64,000 bases of DNA from Curtobacterium sp. VKM Ac-1393. Lineage in GTDB: Bacteria; Actinomycetota; Actinomycetes; Actinomycetales; Microbacteriaceae. Within the stretch, counting starts at the first letter, position 1, and each line of letters begins with the position of its first letter. Made by a program: the position numbers and the translations under genes. Shown piece after piece: positions 11,185-35,991 of this stretch. Below the pieces are notes generated by a model that did not search any database, was not told the DNA's origin, and worked only from the letters and a program-made list of their open reading frames with translations. Location of the stretch: positions 62,001 through 126,000 of the forward strand of contig NZ_JADKRW010000004.1 of NCBI RefSeq assembly GCF_015350995.1. The letters are read 5' to 3'.

Positions 11185-11733
11185 ATGGCCCAGGTCGCGA
11201 TCATCGTCAACGGCATGCCCGGTTCCGGCAAGAGCACGATCGGCACGGCGCTGGCCGAGGTGCTCGGGTGTCCCTTCCTGTCGAAGGACCGGATCAAAGA
11301 ACCCCTCGCCGACATCGTCGGGCCGATGATCGCGTCGCGTCCCCTCGGTGGCATCGCCATGGACACCATGTGGTCCATGACGCGGGCCGTCGAGAACGGG
11401 GTCGTCCTCGACGCCGTCTGGCTGCCGTCACGTGATCGCGCCCTCCTGGAGGCTGGGCTCGCGTCCGCGGGATCGCCTCGCGCCGTCGAGGTGTGGTGCG
11501 ACACGGACCGCGCCACCGCCGAGGACCGGCTGCACGACCGCTACGACCCGGGCACCGTCCCGGTGCGGCACGAGGTGCACGGGGACCTGGCCGACGTGCT
11601 GGCCTTCTGGGACGAGCACGGCGACGCCGCGCAGCCGGTCGGTCTGCCGGGTGTCCCGGTGGTCCGCGTCGACACGACGAAGCCCTACGACGTCGGAGCC
11701 CTCGTGCAGGAGATCGCGTCGCACTTCGTCTGA
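11185..11733 (+). CDS. P-loop AAA kinase, small-molecule kinase-like
   Basis: A 182-aa P-loop NTPase. Walker A GMPGSGKST is at about residues 10-18, and a short lid-like region with paired arginines (about 110-125, DRLHDRYD) resembles zeta-toxin/gluconate-kinase type small kinases of the AAA_33 class. Substrate unknown. The ATG at 11185 lies 6 nt after GAGGAT, a near match to the leaderless promoter pattern used elsewhere in this window. It follows phoU by 55 nt and ends at a strong terminator. Confidence 0.75.
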   Translation: MAQVAIIVNGMPGSGKSTIGTALAEVLGCPFLSKDRIKEPLADIVGPMIASRPLGGIAMDTMWSMTRAVENGVVLDAVWLPSRDRALLEAGLASAGSPRAVEVWCDTDRATAEDRLHDRYDPGTVPVRHEVHGDLADVLAFWDEHGDAAQPVGLPGVPVVRVDTTKPYDVGALVQEIASHFV

Positions 11734-11746
11734 CCAGCTGGAACCA

Positions 11747-11780
11747 CGAACGCCCCGTCCGGACTCGGACGGGGCGTTCG
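11747..11780. terminator. Bidirectional terminator hairpin
   Basis: Perfect 14-bp stem CGAACGCCCCGTCC / GGACGGGGCGTTCG with a 6-nt loop between the convergent kinase gene and gpmA. Confidence 0.85.
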
Positions 11781-11791
11781 CGTTTGCCGTG

Positions 11792-12538
11792 CTACTTCTT
11801 GGCGCCCTGGGCGGCCACGGCGGCAGCGCCGGCGGCAGCGGCCTCGGGGTCGAGGTAGTACGCCGGCTTCGTCGGACGGAAGTCGTCGTCGAGCTCGTAC
11901 ACCAGCGGGATGCCCGTCGGGATGTTCAGCCCGGCGATGTCGTCGTCGGAGATGTCGTCGAGGTGCTTGACGAGCGCGCGGAGCGAGTTGCCGTGCGCCG
12001 TGACCAGCACGGTCTTGCCCTCGCCGAGGTCCTTCGTGATGTCGGACTCCCAGTACGGCAGCAGGCGGTCGATCACGAGCTTGAGCGACTCGGTGCGGGG
12101 CAGCTGGTCACCGAGGTCGGCGTAGCGGCGGTCGCCGGCCTGCGACCACTCGGCGCCGTCGGCGATGGGGGGCGGCGGGACGTCGAACGAGCGGCGCCAC
12201 TCCATGAACTGCTGCTCGCCGTACTCGGCCAGCGTCTGGGCCTTGTCCTTGCCCTGCAGGGCGCCGTAGTGGCGCTCGTTGAGTCGCCAGTCACGCTTCA
12301 CCGGCAGCCACGCCAGGTCGGCCTGCAGCAGCGCGATGTCCGCCGTCTGGATCGCGCGGGTCAGGAGCGAGGTGTACAGGACGTCCGGGACGATGCCCGA
12401 CTCGGCGATGAGGTCGCCGGCGCGCTTCGCCTCCTTCTCGCCCAGCTCGCTGAGCCGGACGTCGACCCAACCGGTGAACAGGTTCTTCTGGTTCCAGTCA
12501 CTGTTTCCGTGACGGAGCAGGACGAGCGTGGAGGTCAT
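11792..12538 (-). CDS. gpmA: 2,3-bisphosphoglycerate-dependent phosphoglycerate mutase
   Basis: A 248-aa histidine-phosphatase-superfamily enzyme that interconverts 3- and 2-phosphoglycerate in glycolysis. The phosphohistidine motif RHGNSDWN has its catalytic His at residue 10. Downstream [13 protein letters not shown] and the second catalytic His in VTAHGNSLR match dPGM. The C-terminus is Ala-rich. I chose ATG at 12538, 7 nt after -10 TAGACT (12546-12551, minus), giving a leaderless mRNA. A GTG two codons upstream is possible. It diverges from the methyltransferase gene, which has its own leaderless promoter. Confidence 0.95.
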
Positions 12539-17102: not shown

Positions 17103-17159
17103 CATTGCGTGGTCGGCGAGGGGTCGGCCAGCGGGGCAATCGGGAAGTCGGGGGACACA

Positions 17160-19166
17160 GTGGCGCAGTACGGTCAGGGTGAGCCGCTCGGCGCGTCCTA
17201 CCGGTTGGTCGAGTTGCTCGGCACCGGTGCGACCGGTGAGGTCTGGCGGACCGAGCACGTTGCGACGGGTGAGCAGTTCGCCGCGAAGCTGCTCCGTGCC
17301 GAGCTCGCCGCCGATCCGCAGATCGTCGAACGCTTCGTCCGCGAACGCTCGGTGCTCCTCGCGCTGCAGCACCCCTCGATCGTGCGGGTACGGGACCTCG
17401 TCGTCGAGGGCGACCGGCTCGCGATCGTCATGGACCTGGTGCCCGGCGGGTCCGCGCGCGATCTGCTCGCCTCGAACGGTCCACTGACCCCGCGGGACGC
17501 CCTCACGATCACCGCCGAGACCCTCGACGCCCTCGCCGCGGCACACGAGCGCGACGTGACCCACCGCGACGTCAAGCCCGACAACGTGCTGCTCCAGACC
17601 CCCTGGGTCCCCGGTGCGACGGGCGACGTCCGGGTCACCGACTTCGGCATCGCGTCGGTGGTCGCCGAGCGGGAGCGCACCACCACGGGGCTCCTCGGTA
17701 CGCCGCAGTACATGGCCCCCGAGTCGATCAGCCACGGTCGCGCGGGTCCTGCTGCGGACGTCTACGGCGCCGGCGTGATGCTCTACGAGCTGCTGTCCGG
17801 TCGGACGCCCTTCGCCGGCCCCGGCACGGACTTCGCCGTCGCGTACCGGCACGTCACCTCGAACCCGCCCCGGCTCGAGGTGCCGGACGCCCTGTGGACC
17901 GCACTGTCCGCGCTGCTCGCGAAGGACCCGGCCGTTCGCCCCTCGGCAGTGGACGCGTCCGCGACCCTTCGTCGTCTGGCGCGCGCACTCGCCTCGACCC
18001 CTGCGCTCGCCGCGACGAGCGACCCGGATGCGTTCGACGAGGTCGAGCGGCCCGCCACCGTGGTCCGCGGGCTCCGGCCGGACGGCGACGCCCCCGGCTC
18101 CCCCGCGGACGGCGACGACGACGCGGCGGACTCCGCCGGGCCGGTGCCGGAACTCGGGCCCGCGGGATCCCAGACCGTCATCCGCCCGATGGTCCGACAG
18201 CCGCTGCCCACCGCCCCCGCTGCCGAGCCGACACCGCCGCGTCGGTTCGGACGCCCCGAGTGGCTGACGAACCGAGCCCTGCTGTTCGGCGGCATCGGCG
18301 TCGTGCTCGTGGCCGTGCTCGTCGTCGCCGGGGTCGTCTGGCTGCCCGGTGCCCTGCGGAAGACACCGGGGCCCGGCACCGCGACCGCGCAGGCTGCCAC
18401 CGCGTACCAGCAGGACCGCCCGCTGCCCACCGGCCTCGCCACCACCCGCCGCGCGACCATCGACCCGGCGAAGGGAACCGTCGACCTGCGCGTCACGTAC
18501 GCGGCGCAGGCATCGGCCCTGACCGGTCCGTTCCTCGAGGTCGTCCCCGGTGCCCGCTCGGGTGCCTCGTGCCCCGCAGTCACCTGGACCGGTGAGGGCA
18601 TCTCGGCGAAGCGCAACCAGCCCTCGCTGACGGGTGTCGACACCGCGTGCGCCTGGGCCCTGTCCGGCGTCGAAGTCCCCGCCGGCGGTGACGTCACGGT
18701 CGAGGCCTCGGTGCCGCTCGCATCCGTCACGGACGGCGCGGCGCTGCAGACGTGGCTCGACGGCGTCGGCGAGGCCACCACCGCTTCCGTGACCAACGAC
18801 GCCGTCCGCGGGACCGCCTACCCGGTGCAGCGGTTGCAGGGCATCGAGGTCCGGACGCCCGACCGCACGGTCAGCCAGACGGCGCTGCCGGTGACGCTCG
18901 TGCCGGTGTGGCCGAGCGGCGCGGACGAGCTCAACCCGCTCTACCGCAGTCCCGCCACGGGGCGCCCGTCACAGATGCTCGTCGACGTGGCCGGCGGAGA
19001 GTCCGGCGTGCGGTTCGCCGACGGTTGCTCGGGAGCGCTGGCGGTGTCGTCCGACGGGCTGGTCGTCACGGCGCTGTCGGTCGCGCCGTCGTGCACGGTG
19101 CGGGCGACGGTGGGGAACTTCACGAACCTCGAGAGCTCGCCGTTCGGGATCACGACGCGCGACTGA
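17160..19166 (+). CDS. Receptor-type Ser/Thr protein kinase (PknB class)
   Basis: A 668-aa kinase. The cytoplasmic domain at about 13-275 has a glycine loop GTGATGEV (21-28), Lys43, the catalytic loop HRDVKPDN (135-142, Asp137), DFG (161-163) and an activation loop rich in Thr (RERTTTGLLGT). A Pro/Asp/Ala-rich juxtamembrane stretch holds two Thr-x-x-V/I-like sites (about 300 and 339). One transmembrane helix (373-395) leads to an extracellular beta-rich C-terminal region of about 270 residues with no PASTA repeats. The GTG at 17160 has GGGGG upstream, and TAACAT at 17100-17105 is a likely -10. It converges on an FHA-containing EccC gene, which suggests the kinase controls that secretion ATPase by phosphothreonine-FHA recognition (inference). 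Confidence 0.9.
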   Translation: MAQYGQGEPLGASYRLVELLGTGATGEVWRTEHVATGEQFAAKLLRAELAADPQIVERFVRERSVLLALQHPSIVRVRDLVVEGDRLAIVMDLVPGGSARDLLASNGPLTPRDALTITAETLDALAAAHERDVTHRDVKPDNVLLQTPWVPGATGDVRVTDFGIASVVAERERTTTGLLGTPQYMAPESISHGRAGPAADVYGAGVMLYELLSGRTPFAGPGTDFAVAYRHVTSNPPRLEVPDALWTALSALLAKDPAVRPSAVDASATLRRLARALASTPALAATSDPDAFDEVERPATVVRGLRPDGDAPGSPADGDDDAADSAGPVPELGPAGSQTVIRPMVRQPLPTAPAAEPTPPRRFGRPEWLTNRALLFGGIGVVLVAVLVVAGVVWLPGALRKTPGPGTATAQAATAYQQDRPLPTGLATTRRATIDPAKGTVDLRVTYAAQASALTGPFLEVVPGARSGASCPAVTWTGEGISAKRNQPSLTGVDTACAWALSGVEVPAGGDVTVEASVPLASVTDGAALQTWLDGVGEATTASVTNDAVRGTAYPVQRLQGIEVRTPDRTVSQTALPVTLVPVWPSGADELNPLYRSPATGRPSQMLVDVAGGESGVRFADGCSGALAVSSDGLVVTALSVAPSCTVRATVGNFTNLESSPFGITTRD

Positions 19167-23549: not shown

Positions 23550-24962
23550 TCAGTCCGTGCTGGAGTCGTCGAACCAGACGAGCGACGCGGTCTGGGCAGC
23601 GTCGGTTCCGCTGCCGGTGCCGTCGCCGTCGCCGGACACGGTGCTGGCCGGACGGAGACCGAGCTGCTGCGCAGACGCCGCGAGCACCGTCGCGTGTGCG
23701 CCGAGTGCCTGCTGCCGCGTGAAGTCGAGCGCGGGACCGGCGATGCCCGCATCGGCGTCGACATCGAGCGCGGCGAGGGCTTCCGTGACGTCCGCCGGGT
23801 CGACGCTCCGCGCCGCACCGACCGCGCGGACCAGGGCGATGACGGCGTCGTGGCTGCGCGAGTCCGCCGCGCCCGCGACCGCCGAGAACGGCTGGTCGCC
23901 CGTGAGGTTCTCGGCGTCCTGATCACCGGCGAGCACCCGGACACCGCCGAGGAAGGCGGACATCGCGCGGCCCCCGGCGTCGGAGGCGAGTGCTCGGGCG
24001 TCGTCGGTGGCGACGCCCACGGTCCGGAAGGCACCGCTCAGGCTGCCGCCGGCCTCGACGAGTGCGGCGCCGAACGCCGGGCTCGTCGCATCCGGCGTGA
24101 GGACGACCGGCACCGTGACGTTCTCAGCCTGGAGCGCGGCGACGAAGGCACCCTGGCGTTCCGCGGAGCCGCTGACGACGACGGCGTCGGAGTCCGGCGT
24201 CACGGTCTTCGCGTCGGTGTCGGCATCGGCGTCTTGCTCGTTGTTCGTCGCGCCGGTGCGCTCGGCGACGGTCGTCGCGAGCGCTGCGGTGTCCGCGGTG
24301 TCGTCACCGTCCAGGACGTGTGCCACCCGCAGGCCCGCCGGAGCGCCGCCGCCCAGGTCGACCAGCAGTGGATCGTCGGCGTCGCCGAGTGCCGTGGTCA
24401 TCGCCTTGCTGATCGAGCCAGCCGCCGGTGCAGTCGACCAGGAGTCCTTCTCCGCCGGAGCGTAGGGCAGGACGACCGGGATGCCCTTCGCCGCAGCTGC
24501 AGTGAGGGCACCCGACACGTGGCTGCCCGACGAGGCGACGACGATGCCCGCGACACCGCTCTTCGCGAGGGCGTCGACCGCGGCCTTGCCCCCGGCAGCG
24601 GTCCCGCCGTCGTTCTTCGTGACGAGCGCGACGTCCGTGCCACCGAGTGCGAGCCGACGCTCCGCAACCAACGCGCCCTGCGCCGCTTCGTTCCACTCGG
24701 ATCCCTCGCTGTCACCGAGGGTGACGATGATGCCGATCTTCGTCTTCGCCGGGACGTGCGCCACCGTGATCTTCACCGGCACGGTCGCCGACACCGCTTC
24801 GGCCGGGGTACTGCTGCCGAACGCCCGGAACGTCAGGACGGCGGCGACCACCGCGGCCACGAGCAGCACCGCGATGCCGACGAGGACGAGCGGACGACGG
24901 CTGCGTGGACGCGTGCCGTCGGGGCCCTCGGTCTCGGTGGCCTCGGTCGTCTGGTCGCTCAT
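23550..24962 (-). CDS. Membrane-anchored periplasmic-binding-fold protein
   Basis: A 470-aa protein with an Arg-rich N-terminus, one transmembrane helix (about 24-47), and then an extracellular type I periplasmic-binding-like fold (Peripla_BP_6 class). Visible features are KIGIIVTLGDSEGSEWNEAAQGA, the GIVVASSGSHVSGA turn, IPVVLPYAPA and DAVVVSGSAERQGAFVAAL. Ligand unknown. No permease is adjacent, and it sits inside a type VII secretion operon. The ATG overlaps the stop of the upstream lipoprotein (ATGA), and eccC follows after 36 nt. I infer a sensor or structural accessory of this secretion system rather than a nutrient transporter. Confidence 0.75.
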   Translation of the reverse strand: MSDQTTEATETEGPDGTRPRSRRPLVLVGIAVLLVAAVVAAVLTFRAFGSSTPAEAVSATVPVKITVAHVPAKTKIGIIVTLGDSEGSEWNEAAQGALVAERRLALGGTDVALVTKNDGGTAAGGKAAVDALAKSGVAGIVVASSGSHVSGALTAAAAKGIPVVLPYAPAEKDSWSTAPAAGSISKAMTTALGDADDPLLVDLGGGAPAGLRVAHVLDGDDTADTAALATTVAERTGATNNEQDADADTDAKTVTPDSDAVVVSGSAERQGAFVAALQAENVTVPVVLTPDATSPAFGAALVEAGGSLSGAFRTVGVATDDARALASDAGGRAMSAFLGGVRVLAGDQDAENLTGDQPFSAVAGAADSRSHDAVIALVRAVGAARSVDPADVTEALAALDVDADAGIAGPALDFTRQQALGAHATVLAASAQQLGLRPASTVSGDGDGTGSGTDAAQTASLVWFDDSSTD

Positions 24963-27715
24963 CGGTCCGCCCCGATCCGGAAGGTGTACAGCGTGGTCGA
25001 GGTCGCGCTGGCCGGGACCTTCAGCTGGAACGCCGGCAGCGTCGTCGCCGCATCGAGCGACGCGCGGAACTGCTCCTGCTGGAGCAGGATGCCGGCGACG
25101 TCCTCGGCGCGGACGTTCGCGTAGCCCGCGGCGTTCTGCGACGCCAGGGCCAGCTGGTAGTCGGCGGAGTCGGACTTGGCCGCGCTCGTGGCCATCGCGC
25201 CGAGGATGCCGGAGCCGTTGACCTTGCGGTCGCCCAGGTCGAGCATCACCCGGTTGAGGTCGCCGGTCAGCAGCGTCGAAGCGCCCTGCACGTCACGCGT
25301 CGAGGCGCTCGTGCTGGCCGCGATGCGCTCGAGGCTGGACGCCGTCTGCCGGTCGACGGCCGAGGAGAGCGCCGAACCCTCTTGCTCGAGCGTGCCCTTC
25401 TGCTCGTCGATCGTGCCCTTCGAGTCCTTCGTGACCTCGCCCGAGGTCGACCGGAGGCCGGCGATCGACTTGTCGAAGGCGTCGCGGACGGCCTGGTTGC
25501 TCTCGGACGCCGTGGTCGAGACCTTCCGCACCTGCGCGTCGATGGCCTTCTTGAAGGTCTCCGACGACTGGTCAGAGGCATCCTTGAAGGTCTTCTCGAC
25601 CTCGGCAGCCAGGTCGATCTGCGTCTGGCGGACCGTCCCGAGCTGCGTCGCGATGACCGCCTGCGACCCGTCAGCCTTCGTGAGAGCCGCGCGAAGGCTC
25701 TCGATCGTGGAACCCACGTCGTCGCTCCCACCACGGACAGCCTGTCGGACAGCGCGGATGCTGTCGTCGAGCGCGGTCAGATCGGTCCGCAGGCCGGCGA
25801 TGGCGCTGCCGATGGAGCCCTCGGTCGTCGCGTCGGCGCTGGTCGAGTCGACGACCTCTTGCCAGCGCGCCGTCTGGTCGTCCAGTCGTTCGTCCATCGG
25901 GTCGGTGAACCCGAGGCCGGGCTGGAGCACGGTTCCCTCAGGCGCACCGGCGCAGGGCTCGGCCGTCAGGTAGCCGCGGAGGCGATCGGCGTCGGCCTGG
26001 TCGAGCTGTCCGAGCGTCGCGAGGGTGCAGAGCTGGTCCGCGACCGCTGAGTTCTGGCGTTGCATCGACAGCGGGAACCCTGCGCCGTCGACCAGGTCAC
26101 GTGCAGCCTCGGCCCGGTCGTGCGTGGTCTGCACGGCCGTCGCCAGGGCGTCGAGTCGCTTGCCGATCTGGTCTGCGCTCGCCGACAGCGCGCGCAATGC
26201 GTCACCGGTGCCGCCGTCCCCACCGTTCTCGTACTCGTCCAGGGCATCGGAGATGCTGGTCAGCTGCGTGTCGAGGTCGGCGGCGCTCGCGATCGCGGCG
26301 TCGACCGTCTCCGGCTGCAAGCGCGCGGCGAGCGCCTGCCCGGTGCTCACCAGTCCGATCAGCGAACCGTTGATCGCGGTGGACGACTCGTAGAGCGTGC
26401 AGGTCAGCGTGTCTCGTGCTTCCGTCGCAGCGCAGGTCGTCGCGTCCGGGGCCTTCGGGCCGACGGCAGCGGCGAGCTGCGCGCTCACCTGCTGCTTGCA
26501 CGCCTCGCTCGCGTCGGCGTAGCCCTGGAGCTGCGACGAGACGCGGAGCAAGTTGCCGTAGACGCTGCCGCCCGCGGTCGAGGTCTTCGGCGTCGCCGCA
26601 CATCCGTTGCCGTCGAGCACCGTGGCCGGTGCCGTGGCCGAGGTGTCGCCGAGCAGGCTGTCGAGGCTGGTCGTGGTCTGCTGGAGCTGCTGCAACACCG
26701 TCGACTGTGTCGCCTTGACGGTCGTGCCGAGGTCCCCGTTCAAGGAACCGAGCTCGCCGGACAGCGACCGCATGGTGCCCGCGAGGGACGAGCTGCTCTC
26801 CTTGAGCCGCTCGGCCGTGCTGACGCCGAGGGTCTTCGACGTGGTCTCGAGGTTCGACCGGACCTCGGTGATCGTGCCGCCCGCTCGTGCGAGCACCTCG
26901 TTGACCTGCGAGATGAGGTCGATGGTGCGGCGCTGGAGCGCGAGTTCGGAGTCGCTGTCGGACCCGAACGCGGCGTTCACCACGCCGGTCGAGGACAGGT
27001 CCGTGGACAGCCCGGGCTGCGCGGCAACGTCGAACGTCGGCGCCGTGAAGTCCTTGACGTCGGCGACGAGGTGCAGCGTGCTGCTCGCGCCGGACGTCGG
27101 CGGTGCCAGCAGGCGGCCCCACTGGACGACCGCGTCGCCGTCCTCGTTGGTGCTGACAACACCGTCGGTGGACGAACCGGAGTCGGCGGCATCCGTGACG
27201 ATGCGGTCGGCCGCGGTGCCGGCGAGCACGGTCGAGGCCGCGACGCTGAAGGGCGCACCCACGAGCGCCGGCGTCGACCGAGAGGTGCCGGCGACGTCGT
27301 AGGTCAGGTTCTTCGACGTGACCGTGAGGTTCTCGATCGTCAGGTCGATCGCGATCCGGCCCGAGTACCCGTCGAGGTCCGCGAGGTCGGTACCGGTCTT
27401 CTTCGACGTCGAGTACTGCGTCGTGATGCGGAGCGGGAGGTCGCCAGCCGCCTTCGCCGGATCGTGGTCGGTCGTCGCGGACGATGAGTCCTTGCCCGCG
27501 ACGGAGATCGCGGTGTCGGAGATCGACGTGATCGAGCCGTCTGCGGCCAGACGGGTGTCGACCGTCTGCAGGATCCGAGACGGGTCAGCCACCGGCTTGT
27601 CGTCGGACGTGCACCCGGCGAGCACCAGCGCGGCGACGCCGGTGACGGCGACCGCCCCCACGAGCCGTCGAGTGGCACTTCGTGCTCCGGTGTTCCCGGC
27701 ACGCTGGTTGATCAC
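24959..27715 (-). CDS. Large secreted coiled-coil lipoprotein of the type VII locus
   Basis: A 918-aa lipoprotein. The signal peptide ends in lipobox LAGC (Cys35). The mature N-terminal third is beta-rich and Thr/Ser-rich. From about residue 290 to 900 long amphipathic helices dominate, rich in Ala, Gln, Ser, Thr and Asp, with recurrent patterns such as SLAGTMRSLSGELGSL and four to six scattered cysteines (about residues 420-640) that may form disulfides. The layout resembles YhgE/Pip-like or phage-infection-protein ectodomains, but I see no flanking transmembrane helices, so the family is unassigned. The GTG at 27715 follows GGGGGGAAG, and TAGCAT on the minus strand at about 27749-27754 is a possible -10. 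It is the first gene of the operon with the binding protein and eccC. Confidence 0.75.
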   Translation of the reverse strand: MINQRAGNTGARSATRRLVGAVAVTGVAALVLAGCTSDDKPVADPSRILQTVDTRLAADGSITSISDTAISVAGKDSSSATTDHDPAKAAGDLPLRITTQYSTSKKTGTDLADLDGYSGRIAIDLTIENLTVTSKNLTYDVAGTSRSTPALVGAPFSVAASTVLAGTAADRIVTDAADSGSSTDGVVSTNEDGDAVVQWGRLLAPPTSGASSTLHLVADVKDFTAPTFDVAAQPGLSTDLSSTGVVNAAFGSDSDSELALQRRTIDLISQVNEVLARAGGTITEVRSNLETTSKTLGVSTAERLKESSSSLAGTMRSLSGELGSLNGDLGTTVKATQSTVLQQLQQTTTSLDSLLGDTSATAPATVLDGNGCAATPKTSTAGGSVYGNLLRVSSQLQGYADASEACKQQVSAQLAAAVGPKAPDATTCAATEARDTLTCTLYESSTAINGSLIGLVSTGQALAARLQPETVDAAIASAADLDTQLTSISDALDEYENGGDGGTGDALRALSASADQIGKRLDALATAVQTTHDRAEAARDLVDGAGFPLSMQRQNSAVADQLCTLATLGQLDQADADRLRGYLTAEPCAGAPEGTVLQPGLGFTDPMDERLDDQTARWQEVVDSTSADATTEGSIGSAIAGLRTDLTALDDSIRAVRQAVRGGSDDVGSTIESLRAALTKADGSQAVIATQLGTVRQTQIDLAAEVEKTFKDASDQSSETFKKAIDAQVRKVSTTASESNQAVRDAFDKSIAGLRSTSGEVTKDSKGTIDEQKGTLEQEGSALSSAVDRQTASSLERIAASTSASTRDVQGASTLLTGDLNRVMLDLGDRKVNGSGILGAMATSAAKSDSADYQLALASQNAAGYANVRAEDVAGILLQQEQFRASLDAATTLPAFQLKVPASATSTTLYTFRIGADR

Positions 27716-27896
27716 GGTCTTCCCCCCAAGAGAATCGTCGAGCACATCGATGCTAGTTGCTCGATGGCGTCGGGTCCGCGTCGATCGGCCGCCCTGACCG
27801 CCCCCGTTCGGGCCACACGCCCCGACTGGAATACAACGTATCGCATCCGGCGAGCTGCGCGATCGCCGTCCACAGCCGCGCTGATACTCTGCACGC

Positions 27897-27971
27897 ATGA
27901 TCCAGGGGGACCGGGGCTGTCAGCCCGTTCGACGTCGACGTCCAACAGCACGATCGAGGGGCGACCGGTGA
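27897..27971 (+). CDS. 24-aa leaderless upstream ORF overlapping the next gene
   Basis: ATG at 27897, exactly 6 nt after -10 TACTCT (27885-27890), opens a 24-codon Arg-rich frame with one Cys. Its stop overlaps the GTG start of the membrane protein gene as GTGA. The spacing equals that of the leaderless genes elsewhere in the window, so ribosomes should load here first and pass to the downstream start. It may be only a coupling leader, or a regulatory peptide. Confidence 0.5.
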   Translation: MIQGDRGCQPVRRRRPTARSRGDR

Positions 27972-28699: not shown

Positions 28700-29167
28700 C
28701 TACGCGCTATCCGGACACTCTGTGTAGTGGTAGATCGACGGGACCACTTTCACCAGCTTGAGTACGTTCCGCAACTTGAACGAGCCGGCACCGAGTTCGA
28801 ACCGGTACTCTTCACCCGCGCTCACCGCCGCGGCCACACTCTCCATGGTCGAGCGATCCACCTCACCCCAGAGCAGATTCCCGCAGTCGGTGTGAAAGTT
28901 GACTTGAGCCTGCGAAACACCTCTTGACGCATGGATCTCCGCCGCCGCTGAACGAACCCGACAGACGACGTCCACGCGGTGCTGATCGTCGTACCGTCCC
29001 AGTAGCCACGGGCCGAATCCGATTGCCATCAGGGGGACCACCACCACACCCATGAGAATGACGATCGCGATCGCGCGGTCACGAAGAACACGAGCACGCG
29101 AACCCCGGATGTGCCGCGCAGCCCGTCGGCCGTGCTCCTTGCTGTGTTCTGCACGTTGCACGATCAC
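28700..29167 (-). CDS. Small membrane protein B, paralogue of the 29789-30235 product; candidate immunity protein
   Basis: A 155-aa protein with a basic N-terminus (about 32 residues), one transmembrane helix (about 33-53) and an extracytoplasmic domain of about 95 residues. It shares with the 29789-30235 product a GPW/GPL-LxxYD junction, a single Cys after V-D/S-V-x-C, an x-C-G core (TDCGNL versus SNCGTL), and the stretch Y-x-F-x-I/L-GAGS-x-x-L-R. It lies last in the row of genes behind the RHS toxin, where immunity genes are usual. Base composition is visibly lower in GC than flanking housekeeping genes. The start GTG at 29167 follows GGCAGGA. No database name can be given. Confidence 0.6.
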   Translation of the reverse strand: MIVQRAEHSKEHGRRAARHIRGSRARVLRDRAIAIVILMGVVVVPLMAIGFGPWLLGRYDDQHRVDVVCRVRSAAAEIHASRGVSQAQVNFHTDCGNLLWGEVDRSTMESVAAAVSAGEEYRFELGAGSFKLRNVLKLVKVVPSIYHYTECPDSA

Positions 29168-29269
29168 TCCTGCCTCGTTCGCTCGTATCGGCTGCGCATC
29201 GAGAAGCGGACGCCAATCCCCGACTTCATCCTGAGAATGCGACCGCTTCGCTCATCGGGTAAGTTCGCC

Positions 29270-29584
29270 TCAGCTCAACCGACGAGCCTGCTTCCGAGCG
29301 GTCTCGATCAGCTTGACGAAACGGTCCGACCGTTCGACGTCGGGCCTGCCTTCGCTGTCAACGAAGTACTGATCAGAAAGTGACCCAGGACCCGCGCGCA
29401 ACAATCGCAAGATGTTCTCACGCGTTTTCTCGATCGCAGGCCCCGGTGCGACGACCCTCACCTCCGCCGCGTACTCCGCGAGGGCTGCCGCAGCCTTGCC
29501 TTCGGGCAACTCAGCGGTGAGCCGAGCGAGTTCCTCGAGCACCGCAGGCAAGCGGATGATCTCCTGCTGAACAGCACGCTTCAA
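29270..29584 (-). CDS. 104-aa soluble protein in the RHS tail cassette, unknown
   Basis: A helical, charged protein with an N-terminal amphipathic helix (RAVQQEIIRLPAVLEELARL) and a C-terminal half with RENILRLLRAGPGSLSDQYF and a basic tail (ETARKQARRLS). I chose TTG at 29584 because GGAGGGG sits 9 nt upstream. The frame stays open further upstream, but that stretch has no good start. It sits between the two paralogous membrane proteins and may be an immunity protein, a chaperone or a displaced toxin remnant. The 204-nt gap upstream (29585-29788) has no other gene. Confidence 0.5.
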   Translation of the reverse strand: MKRAVQQEIIRLPAVLEELARLTAELPEGKAAAALAEYAAEVRVVAPGPAIEKTRENILRLLRAGPGSLSDQYFVDSEGRPDVERSDRFVKLIETARKQARRLS

Positions 29585-29788
29585 TGATCTCTCCCCTCCT
29601 CTCGAAGGTCTCGATGTGAGCGACCGGTAACTCCTGATGCCGACTAGATCGTGCACGCGGAGTTCATGTCTGGGCCATCCCGCCCCCAGGCAGAAAAGGC
29701 CCCTTCGAAACCAAGTGGGAGCGTTCCCCATCGACAGCGATTGCCTCCGCGGCTGCTCATCCGAAGTGACGTCAACCGCGGCGCGCTG

Positions 29789-30235
29789 TCAACTCGCCTT
29801 CCGGAATTCCTTCACGAAGACCGCTTGACGCATTGCCTGCAGCAAACCTCGAAGGTTGTACGAACCGGCCCCGATCTGAAATTCGTATCGCTGGCCCGAC
29901 TCCACCGTCGAGGCGAGCCGGTCTTCATTTGCAGGCGTGACTCCCCACCGGAGAACGAGCGTCCCACAATTCGACGATTCGAACACGACCTGTGACGACG
30001 ACGTGCCGACTCCTTTCAACGAGTGCGAGGACGCGGTCCCGCTGTGGGCGGACGTCACTGTACAAGTCACAGAGGTCTGGTGGGCCGCATCGTAGGCTTT
30101 CAGCGTGAGCGGACCGATGAATATGACGAGCAGAGGGACGAGGACGACAACGGCGAGTACGGAGATGGCCTTGACGCGATCGCGCCGAACCGACCGCGGG
30201 CCCTTCGTCCCACTTCTTGTTCTGCTGTCGTTCAA
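29789..30235 (-). CDS. Small membrane protein A directly behind the RHS toxin; candidate immunity protein
   Basis: A 148-aa protein with a basic N-terminus, one transmembrane helix (about 24-43) and an external domain with two cysteines (VTCTVT and SSNCGTLVLRW) and the GAGSYNLRGLL segment. It is paralogous to the 28700-29167 product. I chose TTG at 30235 for the AAGGGG 7 nt upstream; GTG at 30256 is an alternative. It begins 32 nt after the toxin stop. A membrane-spanning immunity candidate would suit a toxin tip that itself looks membrane-active. The role is inferred from position, not proven. Confidence 0.62.
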   Translation of the reverse strand: MNDSRTRSGTKGPRSVRRDRVKAISVLAVVVLVPLLVIFIGPLTLKAYDAAHQTSVTCTVTSAHSGTASSHSLKGVGTSSSQVVFESSNCGTLVLRWGVTPANEDRLASTVESGQRYEFQIGAGSYNLRGLLQAMRQAVFVKEFRKAS

Positions 30236-30267
30236 GTCGTCCCCTTTTCGATCCACCGGTGGCTCAA

Positions 30268-33200
30268 TCAGTGCACCTCGACGGTCGGCCCACTCGCGCC
30301 CGAGATGGCACCGTTGATGCCGTCCTGGAGGTAGTCGCTCGGGTCCTTGCCCACGATGACGTCGTTTGTCACGGCACCGACCGCGCCCGCAAGGCGGTCG
30401 ACTGTACCAGTGGCGATCGTGTTCCAGGCAGCAACGTTCGGCGCCAACGCGTGCTCGGGCACGAAGACATGCCGACCCGTCGGGACAGGGAAGCGTGGGG
30501 TGATGTGGAGATTGTCCACGACGTAGTCACCGAGCTTCCCCGACCCTGCACTGAACACTGTTCCGGTTCCGAAGCCCACTGCCGCCGTCTGGGCGAAGCC
30601 GCCGATCGTCTGGTCCTTGCCGTTCAGCGCGTAGTCAGTCATGTTCGAGGCGGCACCGGACGCTCCTGCGGCCAGGGCAGAACGGCCTGTCGAGCCGAGC
30701 AGAGGAGCGGCAGCACGCTGCACAACGTTGGTGGCGACCTGACCCGTCGCCGGAGCCAGCTTCGCGAGGCCGGTCGCAGCGGCTCCTCCCGCTGCGCCAC
30801 CGGCGGCACCGATGACGGCGTCAACTCCGACCTTGTTCCAGTCCACTGTGCCGTTCTGCACCTTCTGAGTGGCGACTGACACACCGCCGGAGATCAGGGC
30901 ACCCGAGGCCGCCATGAGGGCGATTCCAGCAGGACCGCCCACGCCGGTGAACATCAAGGCGACACCGACCACGATCGCGGCCCCTGCTACGACGTAATCA
31001 CCGTATTCGTTCCACCAGCTCCCTACAGCAGCGATCGCACCCTGGTTCGCATCCCGGTACGCCTGCAGGTCCTTGTCCGTCGCCGGTCGCAACCCGAGCG
31101 GGTCGACGGCCTGCAACGGGTCGTTGCCCGCGTACGAGTAGGGGTTCCCCGACCACGCCGCACCCAGGATCGGCGCAAGCGGGTCGACCGACAGGAAGCC
31201 TCGCGCCGCCGGGTCGTACACACGGGCGCCGAGCCACTCCAGCCCGGCGACGGACACTCCCCCGGAGCCGGTCAGGGACACGCCCGCGGGCAGTCCGAGG
31301 TCGGTGACGGCGGCGAGCGCCGCCCAGGGGTCGGCAGCATCGGTGGCACGAGCGCTGCGCCACGCAGGCTGTGTGACGGACTCGCCGATCGCGGTGACCC
31401 CACCGGGCAGGTCGAGCAACGACGTGTCGGCGATGCTGATGAGCGACGGCACGACCGCGGCGGAGTCCCACCACGCGGCGACCCCAGCTGCCTCGGCGAG
31501 TTCACCGAGGGCATCGACCCAGACATCGAGTCGGCCGGTCTCGGCGTACGAGGCGTCGCGCTCGACGACGGTTGCGAGGTACCCCAGGTCGGACCACGCG
31601 TACTCGGTGGTGGATCCGTCAGCGCCGGTCCGTCGGATGCGTCGGCCGAGACCGTCGTGGACGTACTCGATCCGGCCGGCTTCGGTCGTCGTCGCGAGCA
31701 GCTGGGCCGCGGCGTCGTACTCGTGTCGGGTCTCGGTGCCGCCGATCACCTCGGCCACGAGTCGGCCACCGTCGTCGTAGGTCCAGGTCGAGTCCCCGGC
31801 GCGGACGAGCTGCCCGGCTGCGTCGTACGCGTACGACACCCGCCCGGAGGGTCCGTCGACGGCGGTGATCCGGGCATCGGCGTCGCGCTCGATGCGGGTG
31901 GTGGCGGCACCGTCGAGGCTGGTCGAGACGTGGGCGACGAGGGCACCGCCCTCGTACGACCACGACTGCACCAGGTCGCCGGTGGCCGACTGGAGGATCC
32001 GACCCGAAGCGTCGTACGAGAAGGAGCCGGCGGCGGCACCGTCACGGTCCACACCCACGACCCGGCCGGCGACGTCGCGTCGGTAGGTGGTCCGCGTGCC
32101 GTTCGGGTCGACCCGCGCGGTCCGGTTGCCGTCGGCGTCGTACTCCCACACAACGGACTGGCCACCCCGGGCACGCCGGACGAGCAGCCCCCGACGGTCG
32201 CACTGGAGCTCGTGTTCGATCGTGCGTCCGGCGCCACGGCCGTGGTCGGTCACGACGAGCGTGCGGTGGACGGCGTCGCGGGCGATCTCCGACTGCGCCG
32301 CACCGTCGACGAGCACGGCCCGCTGCCGACCGGCGGCGTCGTACGTCCACTCGGTGGTGCGGCCGTCGGGATCTGTCTGACGGACCTGGCGCCCGGCCTG
32401 GTCGTAGGACGCCGCAGTGGTCCGGCCGAGTGGGTCGGCGACGGCGATCAGACGGTCGGCGGCGTCGTACTCGCGCCGGGTGACCCCGCCCGCGGGGTCG
32501 GTGACGGCCACGAGCCGTCCGCGGTCGTCGTACTCGAACGTGGTGACCCCGTCGAGACCGTTGACGACCTGGATCAACTGCCCCGCGGGGTCGTAGCGGA
32601 ACCGACGACGGCCGAAGCGTGCGTCGTGGCTGGAGACGAGCCTCCCGGCCTGGTCGTACCGGAACCGCGCGGTGCCGGAACCCGGAGTCGTCTGCGTGAC
32701 CACGCGTCCGACAGCGTCGTACGCGACTTCTTCGACCTCGCCGGTGGGCAGGGTCCGGGCGACGACACGGGAGTCCGCGTCGTAGGTGAGGGTCGTCCGT
32801 GCCCCGGCGGCGTCGGTCGCCGCGGCGGGCCGACCGCAGGCGTCGTAATCGTAGGTCGAGCGCGCTCCCGAGGGGGCGACCAGCGCGACGACACGGCCGG
32901 CGAGGTCGCGCTCGAGTCGGGTCAGGCCGCCTTCGCCGTCGACCAGCTCGACGGGTCGGCCGGCGGCGTCGTAGGTGATGAGTTCGGAACCGGTGTCGTC
33001 AGAGGTCGATTCGACGGGTCGGCCGTACTCGTCGAACCGGACGGTCGCCGAGTCGAAGGCGTCACGCAGGGTCGCGACGCCGGTCGCGACGTCGTCCGAG
33101 AACTCCCGGCGGACGCCCGTCGGGTCGACGGTCGCCGTCAGCTCGCCGACGACGTCGTACTCACGACGCCAGGTCGCGCCCGCTGGGTCGGTGACGGCCT

Positions 33201-35601
33201 GGAGGCGCGACAAGGCGTCGTGCGCGAACGTCCAGACCGCGCCGCCCGGCAGTGCGAGCTCCGCCAGGTTCCCCTGGTCGTCGAACGTCCGCGAGACACG
33301 CCGACCCAGCGGATCGGTGGTCGTCGCCAGTTCGCCGTTCGGTGCGTACTCGAAGGCCGTGCGGGCTCCGAGTGGGTCCGTGATCGCGGCGATGCGGGCG
33401 CCCGGGGTGTACTCGAAGCGCCAGACCGCACCGTCGGCGTCATGGCGTGCGACGAGCAGCCCGGCGGCGTCGTAGCGGTACTCGCTCCGTGCGCCGGAGG
33501 GGCTGACCGCGGCGACCGGGCGGCCGGCGGCATCACGCTCGATCCGAGCGGTGTCGCCGACGGCGTTCGTGGTCGCGACGAGCTCGCCGAACGCGTCGTG
33601 GTCGAGGGTCAGGACCACACCGGTCGGGTCGACGACGTGGGTGAGGGCGCCGTCCTGCCAGGTCAGCTCCGTCCGGCCGCCGACCGGGTCGGTGATCACC
33701 GACGGGTCGCGGTCGTCGCCCGCGTACTCGGAGGTGACGACGGCACCGGCCTCGGTGACGACGGTCGTGACGCGGTCCTGCTCGTCGTACCCGAAGGTCA
33801 GGTCGCCGCCGGACGGCGTGACGGTACGGGTCTTCCGGCCGCGGTCGTCGTACGCGTGCACGGTGACGGACCCGTCGCGCTCGGTCGCCGACACCAGGTT
33901 GCCGTACCGGTCGTAGCTCATCGACTGGCGTCGGTCGTCGGAGTCGATGACCCCGACCAGACGCCCCTTGGCATCGGCGATGTAGGAGTTCGACCGCGAC
34001 CCGTCGTGGTCGGACACCACCGTGACCCGGCCGGGCAGGTAGGCGAAGCGCACCGTGCGGCCGTGTGGACTGACCTGCTCGGCCACGCGGCGCTGGTCGT
34101 CGTAGGTGTTGTCGACCTCGACGACACCGGACGCGCTCGTGACCGTCGTGATGAGGTCGTCGTCGTTCCAGCCGTAGCGCCGGGTGCCGACGGCGTCGGT
34201 CGCCGAGACGAGGCGGCCCCGGTCGTCGTACCCGTACTCGACCCGGCGGCCGTCGGACGCGCGGAGGACCGCGACCCGGCCCTCGACGTGGTCGACGTCG
34301 ATCGAGCGGCCTCGTTCGTGCACCAGACGGACGACGACGTCGTCGCTGTCCCGTTCGACACGGACCGCCGTGCCGGCACCGCCGCGCTGTCCGAGCCACT
34401 GGCCCGACGGCGAGAACTCGATGCGCTCGCCCTGGTTGTCACGGACGACGAGCCGGTCGCCCTCGACCGAGAGCCAGCGGTTCTCACCGACTCCGCGCGC
34501 CCAGCCCTCGCCGTCGCGCGGGAACCGGACCTGACGACCGTCGGCGCCGACGAAGGATGCGCCCTCGTCGTCGAGGAGCAGCCGGGTCTCGAGGATCGAT
34601 GCCCAGCCCGGGCCGAAGAGCCCGAGGTGCTGGTCGAGGGAGTTGTACATGCGGGTGACCTGCAGTGCCGCGGATGCACCGGTGAACCCGAGGTCGAGCT
34701 CGGGCTCGAGGAAGTTGCCCGTCGTGGTGTTGACCGGGTCCATGGAGTAGCCGGTCGTCGGCTGGGCACCGTAGGCCGACGGCGGATCGAACTGCAGGTC
34801 GGTTCGGGACTGCGAGACCCCGGCGGCAGCCAGGGCTGCGGCGAGCGCCGAGTCCGCGACGGTGGAGACCGATCCCTCACCCCCGGCAGCAGCGAACGCG
34901 TCGGCGATGGTGTTCGCCCACGTGACGTCCTGCTCGTTGGCGGCGAGCCACTTGTCGAACGCCGACACGAGCCCGTCGGCGTTGATCGTGCCCCACGAGC
35001 ACTTCGTCGCGAAGTCGTCGAGCTTGCCGCGGAGCCCCGCGGGCTTGCCGGCGAGGTCGCTGTTGAGCGAGGCCGATCCGGTGGCGAAGGAACGCAGGTC
35101 CTCCGGCTTCGCCGACGACGTCCCGCCACCACCGCCGCCACCGGCGCCGGGGTTGGGCGTCTGACGCGTCGTCGACTTCGCACTGGCAGGCGCGAAGGTC
35201 GGAGCATCCTCGTGCTTGACCTCGGGCGGGTTGTCGTTGCCGCTGGCCCAGTCGACGGCGACCTCGATGAAGTTGCGGTTCTCGTGGTGTTCGTACCAGT
35301 CGCTCGCCGTCTTGCGGCGAGCGTTCTCGCTCTTGGCGGCTGCCTTCATCTGGTCGACCCACCCCGCGACGGTGCGCAGGTTCGTGGCGATGTCCTCGGC
35401 GTCGCTCTTCGCGGTGCCGGCGTTCTCGGCGAAGAGCTCGGAGAAGTGCCCGCGGAACTCCTGCGATGCGGTGGTGACGTAGGACTGCCGCGAGCCGGCC
35501 TGTCCCTCGATCGATTCGGCCGCGCCGTTCAGCGCCGTGCTGAGTGCGTCGGCCGTCGCGTTGTCGAACTCGACCGGCTCATTGCCGTGCAGGTCAGCCA
35601 T
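30268..35601 (-). CDS. RHS/YD-repeat polymorphic toxin with DUF6531, probably type VII exported
   Basis: A 1777-aa protein. Residues 1-100 are helical, WXG/LXG-like, with no signal peptide. A Gly-rich linker lies at about 152-160 and a second helical region at about 165-260. A DUF6531-type start of the RHS shell ([13 protein letters not shown], about 285) precedes dozens of YD repeats. The core ends at the conserved RHS boundary (FLSVDPLAP...[17 protein letters not shown], about 1460-1504). The 273-residue variable tip (about 1505-1777) has two hydrophobic Gly/Ala-rich segments and no nuclease, deaminase or ADP-ribosylation motif I can see, so it may be membrane-active (inference). WXG100 lies upstream and candidate immunity genes downstream. 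The ATG at 35601 follows a weak GGGGGAT. Confidence 0.9.
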
Positions 35602-35659
35602 GGTTCATCCCCCGAAGTCGTACTGATCGTGCTGGTGACGCGGCCCCACCGACCGCGAA

Positions 35660-35693
35660 CGCCCGGACCGCCGCGAGTGCGACGGTCCGGGCG
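35660..35693 (-). terminator. Hairpin between the WXG100 and RHS genes
   Basis: Perfect 11-bp stem CGCCCGGACCG / CGGTCCGGGCG with a 12-nt loop, 16 nt after the WXG100 stop codon. It is probably a partial terminator or processing site that makes WXG100 mRNA exceed toxin mRNA. Confidence 0.6.
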
Positions 35694-35709
35694 GAACGAG
35701 TGTGGCTGC

Positions 35710-35991
35710 TTACGCGCCGCCACCCGCGGTGAAGATGTCCTGCGAGATCTTGTCGAGCTGTGTGCGGAGCTGCTCGAGTTCGGTCTTCGCCTTGTCCAGC
35801 GCCGCCTTGGTCTCGGGCCAGGTGGACCCGCGGAAGGTCGAGGCGAGCGGGCCGTCCCAGACGTTGGAGTCGGACAGGATCCGGCCCTGGGCGTCGAGCT
35901 GCGAGATCTGGTCGGTGAAACCGCCGTTGATGATCGACTGGACCTGACGGATGGCGGTCTTGGCCTGCTCGGTCGAAAGGACACGCGACAT
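35710..35991 (-). CDS. WXG100-family (ESAT-6-like) secreted protein
   Basis: A 93-aa helical hairpin protein of the WXG100 length class. The turn carries W-D-G in NVWDGPLAS (about residues 43-51). Helix 1 (about 5-40) and helix 2 (about 55-85, [21 protein letters not shown]) are amphipathic. Such proteins are dimeric substrates or partners of EccC/EssC. The ATG at 35991 follows GAAAGAGG. It lies directly upstream of the RHS toxin in the same direction, with a hairpin between them, suggesting a secretion partner or chaperone for it. Confidence 0.9.

Follow-up and report, generated by a model that had tools for sequence, protein, structure and literature searches.

The 64,000-nucleotide stretch of Curtobacterium sp. 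VKM Ac-1393 DNA analyzed here (the window; the genome carrying it measures 3.95 Mb) encodes on its minus strand a cassette that consists of a WXG100-like gene, an Rhs protein of 1777 amino acids (aa) and three small genes, termed T1, T2 and T3. In the model proposed here, to which we assign a probability of roughly 70%, this cassette specifies an exchangeable Rhs toxin served by a type VII secretion system (T7SS), the C-terminal tip of which (class A) has T1 as its cognate immunity protein and acts nonenzymatically at the outer face of the cytoplasmic membrane, probably by perturbing it, with T2 and T3 being orphan immunity genes. The parts of the cassette on which the model rests are as follows.

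35710..35991, minus strand: WXG100-like T7SS partner gene, 93 aa, VWDG motif visible
30268..35601, minus strand: Rhs/YD-repeat toxin carrier, 1777 aa, with DUF6531, Rhs repeats, Rhs_assc_core and a class A tip
35164..35568, minus strand: N-terminal helical domain of the Rhs protein (residues 12-146), common to an Rhs-less Devriesea protein
31090..31104, minus strand: DPLGL boundary (residues 1500-1504), placed by sequence and by the end of the Rhs_assc_core match
30754..31089, minus strand: shared hydrophobic pre-toxin (tip residues 1-112), by profile match to class B, C and D tips
30937-30993, minus strand: strongest hydrophobic segment (tip residues 33-51), by hydropathy
30520..30753, minus strand: Gly-rich tip part (residues 113-190), of which 122-190 is weakly common with class C
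30271..30519, minus strand: class A-specific toxin end (about tip residues 191-273), by clustering of 21 tails; orphan tails keep parts of it
29789..30256, minus strand: T1, candidate cognate immunity gene, predicted N-terminal helix and outward two-Cys domain; an alternative start, TTG 30235, is plausible
29270..29731, minus strand: T2, putative orphan soluble class C-type immunity gene; likely start TTG 29584
28700..29167, minus strand: T3, putative orphan T1 paralogue; its nearest cognate T1 is that of L067, another class A subtype (47%)

Pairing of T1 with Class A Tips

The window tip was used to search 66 genomes of the genus, which gave matches in 35, and the 59 full tips from all 35 genomes were cut at the conserved boundary and clustered solely by their sequence from residue 161 onwards; as the query was the window tip, tip classes with a diverged pre-toxin are missed. 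Ten tail clusters resulted, comprising class A (21 tips from 20 genomes, window included), class B (11 tips), cluster 2 (10 tips, seven of class C and three others) and seven small clusters with 17 tips. The first downstream gene belongs to the T1 family in all 21 class A tips and in 0/38 others, irrespective of whether a profile (made from T3 and 12 of these class A T1s) or the single window T1 is used (worst E 6.1e-16). The Fisher p for this association is 1.9e-16, calculated on rows that are not independent, the species being related. In the window itself T1 starts 11 nucleotides (nt) past the Rhs stop, with no soluble gene between. Tail and T1 distances in 18 non-redundant pairs correlate with r 0.72, leaving a partial r of 0.37 given the pre-toxin (5000 permutations, p 0.0002). 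T1 also follows displaced class A tail fragments devoid of a full Rhs gene, at a distance of -3 to 90 nt, in six of seven such orphan tails (L035 repeats the G005 locus and is not counted).

The pairing is not confined to Curtobacterium. A search for the T1 family matched 13 of 398 genomes, and besides our own, nine neighbourhoods were fetched, with marginal matches in G133, G143 and G415 (E 3.7e-4 to 5.8e-4) left out. An Rhs gene with a class A end followed directly by T1 is found in Frondihabitans sucicola, Microbacteriaceae bacterium PS02332, G107 and G437, with a weaker case in G212; four of the nine neighbourhoods have an Rhs tip directly upstream of T1, one of the four being G212, which has no tail-profile score. 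Because T1 stands first behind all class A tails and behind none of the other tips, and because the pairing recurs in other genera, T1 is likely the cognate immunity protein of the class A tip, a pairing that gene linkage strongly supports across species. An earlier, sequence-only reading of this DNA had proposed a toxin-immunity cassette with a membrane-protein immunity candidate, and for T1 this proposal has held up. T1 genes further occur in arrays of up to six copies per locus (94 T1 places were counted in the survey loci, some of them twice because one locus was covered by two fetches that overlap), which suggest that the stockpiling of immunity genes is general.

T1 has one computed hydrophobic segment and, by the charge rule, an N-in/C-out topology in 21/21 cases; two cysteines are invariant in the family. 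The number of hydrophobic segments in the first neighbour follows the tip class, being one in 21/21 class A, 2-4 in 11/11 class B (one of the 11 by an alternative open reading frame) and none in 25/27 other cases. The predicted structure of T1 has a mean predicted local distance difference test score (pLDDT) of 84.6, and an OB-like fold is tentatively predicted for its outward domain. Foldseek matches to this model have poor E-values, and the list is dominated by families that we take to be OB-fold proteins; there is no TipC among the matches listed, which excludes nothing. Matches of T1 to the PDB by sequence (E 0.3-1, mostly to a receptor helix) were taken as chance. Neither T1 nor T2 or T3 has a match near the curated cut-off in Pfam or NCBIfam or one below E 0.02 in PHROGs, and an alignment search with T1 retrieved 39 proteins; no Pfam domain is listed for any of them, and the named relatives are hypothetical proteins.

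Architecture of the Tip

The Rhs protein shows DUF6531 (PF20148, E 3.5e-19), 27 Rhs-repeat stretches (PF05593, E 1.4e-114) and Rhs_assc_core (TIGR03696, E 2.5e-10), the last of which ends at residue 1504. This places the end of the core exactly at DPLGL, the boundary noted in the earlier reading, with a tip of 273 aa beyond it. Tip residues 1-112 are alike across classes A, B, C and D (hhalign probability 99-100%), and the strong hydrophobic segments of class A are confined to this shared part, near residues 28-56 with a second one in some tips near 53-76. In one genome (G006, locus L075) the tip has an EndoU nuclease (PF14436, E 6.4e-12) at its end and matches the window tip only over residues 1-147. 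Since residues 1-112 thus recur ahead of unrelated ends, one of them EndoU, the hydrophobic region of the tip is, to judge from these alignments, a common pre-toxin and not the warhead. The sequence-only reading had pointed to Gly/Ala-rich hydrophobic segments in the tip; that these are the warhead is not supported, the strong part of these segments lying in a pre-toxin shared with EndoU and other ends that have mostly soluble neighbours.

Tip residues 122-190 are weakly common with class C (hhalign probability 84%, 65 columns), and the class A-specific part is for this reason set at about the last 80 residues. Kinship between class A and class B tails was considered as well; the hhalign probability is 25%, and therefore no claim is made. 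Taken together, the comparison of tips supports a modular arrangement, in which the window would carry one allele of an exchangeable locus. At third codon positions, the GC content falls from 0.90 for the Rhs core to 0.74-0.81 for the tip and 0.69-0.71 for T1/T2/T3, which is what an exchanged cassette would be expected to show.

The tip is indeed unrecognised, as had been held earlier: nothing in Pfam or NCBIfam comes near a curated cut-off, PHROGs give no match below E 0.02, the PDB gives a single chance-level match by sequence (E 0.44), and the last 160 residues have no match in the PLSDB plasmids. Residues 1640-1777 of the Rhs protein, compared with about 5.8 billion proteins, yielded three clusters, one named Curtobacterium, in a search that admits only proteins of 0.55-1.75 times the query length and hides short carriers; 14 of the 18 named loci from a search with the tip alignment are from Curtobacterium.

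T2 and T3 as Putative Orphan Immunity Genes

T2 lies between T1 and T3 and has no hydrophobic segment visible by inspection. Its start at TTG 29584 is preceded by a strong ribosome-binding-site-like sequence and gives a better fit to relatives of about 105 aa. Such a relative (E 1.4e-25 to 0.002) comes first downstream of seven of the 10 cluster 2 tips, all seven of class C, and of 0/49 tips outside cluster 2. As T2 relatives are tied to class C tips, T2 is most simply read as the immunity gene of a class C toxin kept without its toxin. T3, with one hydrophobic segment seen by inspection, is 41% identical to T1 over 128 aligned residues, and a copy of it (77% identical) stands behind another tip in G011; it looks like an orphan that belongs to another class A subtype.

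The earlier reading had placed two membrane paralogues in immunity position and had regarded both as paired immunity. Its first part applies to T1, which adjoins the Rhs gene, and not to T3, from which T2 separates it; the second does not stand, as T1 alone is tied to the tip and T3 is nearest to the T1 of another class A subtype. The survey of neighbourhoods of Rhs proteins sharing the tip, which that reading had put forward as a check, thus links T1 to the tip as anticipated but relates T2 to class C and leaves T3 a putative orphan.

The Rhs-less Carrier of Devriesea agamarum

A second genome search matched three of 396 genomes, namely our own, G512 (Devriesea) and G692, in the last of which no class A tail was found. 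In Devriesea agamarum it led to the following gene.

L137:7804-8841, minus strand: Rhs-less protein, 346 aa, Rhs N-terminal domain joined directly to a class A end

The N-terminus of this protein is 33% identical to residues 12-146 of the window Rhs protein (137 columns, E 2e-16) and its C-terminus 32% identical to the class A end (156 columns), with neither YD repeats nor hydrophobic pre-toxin segments being present. A T1 gene overlaps the end of the gene, and a second orphan tail with T1 is found further on, so that L137 holds a tail with an adjacent T1 twice, plus a third pair in which only a remnant of the tail (E 0.026) is seen. Tail and T1 are 488 nt apart in L136, and L138 has a T1 without a tail. 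The protein corresponds to a database record of 268 aa with a later start, annotated as a hypothetical protein, and only this record was found among 7995 candidates scored. To judge from these alignments, the Devriesea carrier separates the class A end from both the shell and the hydrophobic pre-toxin, although it is conceivable that the short protein represents an old internal deletion of an Rhs gene.

As a separate observation, T1-like domains in L120, L122 and L126 end longer open frames (311-530 residues, stop to stop) without an Rhs tip upstream and are possible fusions or another role of the domain.

Proposed Model and Alternatives

In the proposed model, the Rhs protein would be exported by the T7SS via its N-terminal secretion-type domain, with the YD-repeat shell carrying the shared hydrophobic pre-toxin and the class A toxin end of about 80 residues. 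T1 would be anchored in the cytoplasmic membrane and expose its folded domain on the outside, and because of this predicted location the toxin would most likely be stopped at the outer face of the membrane. There the class A end would act without an enzymatic active site, probably inserting into the membrane or perturbing it with the help of the pre-toxin, and T2 and T3 would be stockpiled orphan immunity genes against other toxins. The comparison across genomes supports a modular tip, the pairing with T1, orphan status for T2 and T3 and, by the charge rule, the topology of T1. We infer secretion, toxicity, protection, the site of action and membrane perturbation of the class A Rhs toxin, as well as pore formation by its tip.

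Among 18 non-redundant class A tails, the eight columns conserved at 90% or more comprise six Gly, one Asn and one Pro and no D, E, H, K, R, C, Y or W. Such a lack of any conserved candidate catalytic residue favours nonenzymatic action at the outer membrane face. Two glycine patterns are found, GxxxGxxxS at tip residues 172-180 (the glycines in 21/21 each, the serine in 19/21) and a C-terminal GxxxGxxGP, of which two glycines are invariant and the third and the proline occur in 20/21 tips. Membrane perturbation is the preferred guess because of the residue chemistry of the conserved columns and of the precedents of Tse5 and EsxX, as described in PMC10684867 and PMC12744356. The membrane-active tip with membrane immunity that the sequence-only reading had suggested thereby survives as the leading idea, now on the grounds of T1 topology and the missing catalytic residues and no longer on those of hydrophobic segments.

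Several observations weigh against this model. No 19-residue segment scoring at least 1.7 lies past tip residue 100 in any of the 21 class A tips, and glycine zippers in the window tail are at shuffle level (1 vs 1.0; p 0.598), with G084 alone among the 21 tails falling below p 0.05 (0.018). GxxxGxxxS lies in the tip part that is weakly shared with class C, and the contrast in catalytic residues is not matched for divergence, class C having 13 such columns in five sequences at 53% identity vs 18 sequences at 36% for class A. The AlphaFold model of the tip is all-helical with a mean pLDDT of 42, which makes it unusable. As to T1, pre-toxin and T1 distances also correlate (r 0.71), so that part of the co-variation between tail and T1 reflects shared descent; the orphan tail in L039 (1/7) has no T1 behind it; and five of the nine fetched T1 neighbourhoods lack an Rhs tip upstream, which means that the T1 family also has other settings. 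Finally, the gene for the 979-aa protein of the adjacent T7SS operon was not found in 13 of the 38 other class A/B/C loci, some of the fetched stretches being short.

The absence of a strong hydrophobic segment and of any zipper excess in the class A tail makes the binding of an envelope component a serious rival, possible if somewhat doubtful, in which the class A end binds or modifies a specific target outside the membrane (lipid II, a cell-wall enzyme or a membrane protein) without forming a pore, and T1 blocks it there. The topology of T1, which puts the immunity domain outside, agrees with this alternative, as does a tail without a hydrophobic segment of its own, and there is a T7SS precedent in TelC/TipC, as given in PMC5555719 and PMC9484751. 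Against it, the 18 non-redundant tails conserve no candidate catalytic residue, and the class A-specific part measures only about 80 residues.

It is improbable that the class A tail is a cytoplasmic toxin, directed for example at nucleic acid or translation, with T1 protecting in an unusual manner or not being a real immunity gene. Cytoplasmic delivery as such is plausible, as the same pre-toxin carries EndoU-type ends with mostly soluble neighbours, and no profile names the class A tail; yet T1 comes first behind all 21 class A tails with its domain predicted outside the membrane, and the 11-nt gap in the window holds no soluble gene. Decay of the tip to a mere pre-toxin, with T1 retained as immunity against others, would be in line with a Gly/Ala-rich sequence without a known domain but is very hard to credit for a tail conserved with GxxxGxxGP in 21 tips of 20 genomes, co-varying with T1 and present also on the short Rhs-less carrier of Devriesea.

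Secretion Context

The cassette as a whole conforms to what was read initially from the sequence, gene calls and profiles agreeing on a WXG100-like gene, a 1777-aa DUF6531/YD-repeat protein and three small genes in one direction near an FHA-ATPase operon. The neighbouring genes are the following.

24959..27898, minus strand: 979-aa exported protein of the T7SS operon, by position; one hydrophobic segment, then LAGC, lipoprotein-like
23550..24962, minus strand: 470-aa protein of the T7SS operon, one N-terminal helix
19296..23513, minus strand: FHA and FtsK/SpoIIIE ATPase, EccC/EssC-like (PF00498 E 2.9e-12, PF01580 E 7.2e-47)
17109..19166, plus strand: Ser/Thr protein kinase adjoining the ATPase gene (PF00069 E 8.4e-51; hydrophobic segment 392-410)

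In the window, the WXG100-like gene and the FHA-ATPase operon flank the Rhs cassette, one on either side, and one plus-strand gene separates T3 from the 979-aa, 470-aa and ATPase genes. Matches of the WXG100-like protein to NCBIfam TIGR03930 (E 0.001) and Pfam PF06013 (E 0.0048) are both sub-threshold with respect to the curated cut-offs. Three features of a polymorphic Rhs toxin are found at this locus (DUF6531/YD core, variable tip past a fixed boundary and, by linkage, a tip-specific downstream gene), as is one of a T7SS substrate, the Rhs gene being encoded together with a WXG100 partner and a T7SS operon. Among the 38 other class A/B/C loci, the fetched lengths of which differ, the 979-aa gene is present in 25, and ppk, WXG100 and 979-aa genes occur together in 12; these same flanking genes enclose A tips in five, B tips in three and C tips in four loci.

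The T7SSd, with a kinase beside the gene of the FHA-bearing ATPase, is reported from Olsenella and Bifidobacterium in the portion of PMC11217815 considered here. The make-up of the present locus resembles that system of Actinomycetota in having a WXG100 gene (below the cut-off), an FHA-bearing ATPase and a membrane Ser/Thr kinase in an actinobacterium, a likeness judged on these three components.

Comparison with Known Systems

The following comparisons draw on parts of the papers cited. The closest known analogue is LrhA/LrhI of Listeria, likened here by description of its architecture, which the Curtobacterium layout closely follows (PMC10327511). LrhA is a DUF6531 Rhs protein encoded at a T7SS locus with an adjoining WXG100 gene (1656 aa in Listeria vs 1777 aa in Curtobacterium), and LrhI, the candidate immunity protein encoded immediately downstream, has one N-terminal helix, an outward globular part and orphan copies elsewhere; from this outward single-helix protein, the authors infer an envelope target. 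In contrast to the Curtobacterium system, LrhI measures 261 aa and the Listeria carrier system is a T7SSb of Bacillota (PMC10327511), and a further difference is the exchange, at one Curtobacterium locus, of tips belonging to soluble- and polytopic-neighbour classes.

Tse5/Tsi5 is similar in that an Rhs shell holds a C-terminal toxin fragment acting on the membrane (PMC10684867) and in that Tsi5 is membrane-bound (PMC12744356). It differs in belonging to the type VI secretion system of Gram-negatives and in that its pores are known from experiment (PMC10684867), pores being no more than proposed for the Curtobacterium tip. In EsxX/ExiCD and TspA/TsaI, as in the present system, no enzyme domain is recognised in the toxin that the T7SS exports, the membrane immunity acts from outside and there are orphan immunity islands; these membrane-depolarising toxins differ by their LXG carriers, the polytopic immunity of ExiCD and a described glycine zipper (PMC12744356). 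Unlike toxins of the EsxX/TelE/TspA type, the class A tail has no hydrophobic membrane segment. As to a glycine zipper, GxxxGxxxS is conserved in the tip, and the zipper count is at chance.

TipC, which blocks the lipid II phosphatase TelC, resembles T1 by description as immunity to a T7SS toxin acting outside the membrane, and TelC differs in being an enzyme with an LXG carrier (PMC5555719). The tandem T1 arrays parallel the tandem tipC immunity paralogues known for firmicute T7SS toxins (PMC9484751). Ionophore toxins of contact-dependent inhibition are likewise built of two-part tips, an entry domain followed by an ionophore end, with highly polymorphic cognate immunity (PMC11630599); their carriers are CdiA proteins in Gram-negatives, and the entry-like part of the Curtobacterium tips is instead common to envelope-type and enzyme-type ends.

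As the layout closely follows LrhA/LrhI, the kind of system is already known, and it is the toxin and immunity families that are new as far as the searches reach. The same holds for the three compartment types of neighbour behind one pre-toxin and for the Rhs-less carrier. No description of this Curtobacterium toxin was found among the literature matches listed, subscription papers being mostly outside their coverage. To our knowledge, descriptions of T7SS toxins from Actinomycetota are scarce once the mycobacteria are set aside.

The locus amounts to a natural replicate, with three toxin classes having single-pass, polytopic or soluble immunity candidates, one pre-toxin and the same flanks. 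Three classes behind one pre-toxin make the role of the pre-toxin and the determinant of the compartment testable. T1 additionally adds an immunity candidate family that none of the searched profile libraries contains, and from its tandem arrays one can see how a stock of immunity genes may be built up. A broader proposal, to which we would give slightly less than even odds, is that the class A end and T1 constitute a separate toxin-immunity family of Actinomycetota, in which a nonenzymatic envelope toxin end of about 80 residues, borne by at least two T7SS carriers (a full Rhs shell and a short Rhs-less protein), is neutralised by an OB-like domain tethered outside the cell. In this proposal the pre-toxin would be a generic entry module that delivers enzyme ends to the cytoplasm and class A ends to the membrane, so that the compartment would be set by the end and not by the carrier.

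Other Tips and Loci

Class B tips (L036, L021, L041, L046, L025, L027, L030, L024 and L070-L072) have a motif AGPAGG, likewise conserve no candidate catalytic residue and lie next to membrane proteins of 125-270 aa with several helices; they likely represent another unnamed envelope toxin family. In one of these loci, L021 (G005:C1, 3472000-3484000), a full class B Rhs gene is followed by a 664-residue open frame with a class A tip end and then by T1 genes, which is an orphan Rhs-end arrangement. Class C tips (L037, L040, L043, L022, L045, L064 and L068) conserve the motifs YRSxY and GGTxQ, and their neighbours are soluble proteins of the T2 type; two tested tips gave no Pfam or NCBIfam match, and the class looks like an undescribed enzyme family.

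Rhs proteins of Rothia share the pre-toxin and have no match to the class A tail profile. In Rothia nasimurium (L101, 8001-9026), an Rhs tip sharing the pre-toxin is followed by a gene for a protein that has one helix and, by eye, two cysteines in similar positions (C...ECG), and a weak T1-profile match (E 0.00018) is located further downstream, at 11495-12149. A second Rhs locus is present in the genome carrying the window (contig C12, L028:4393-5253, minus strand), with a cluster 5 tip without a Pfam match and a neighbour of 232 aa.

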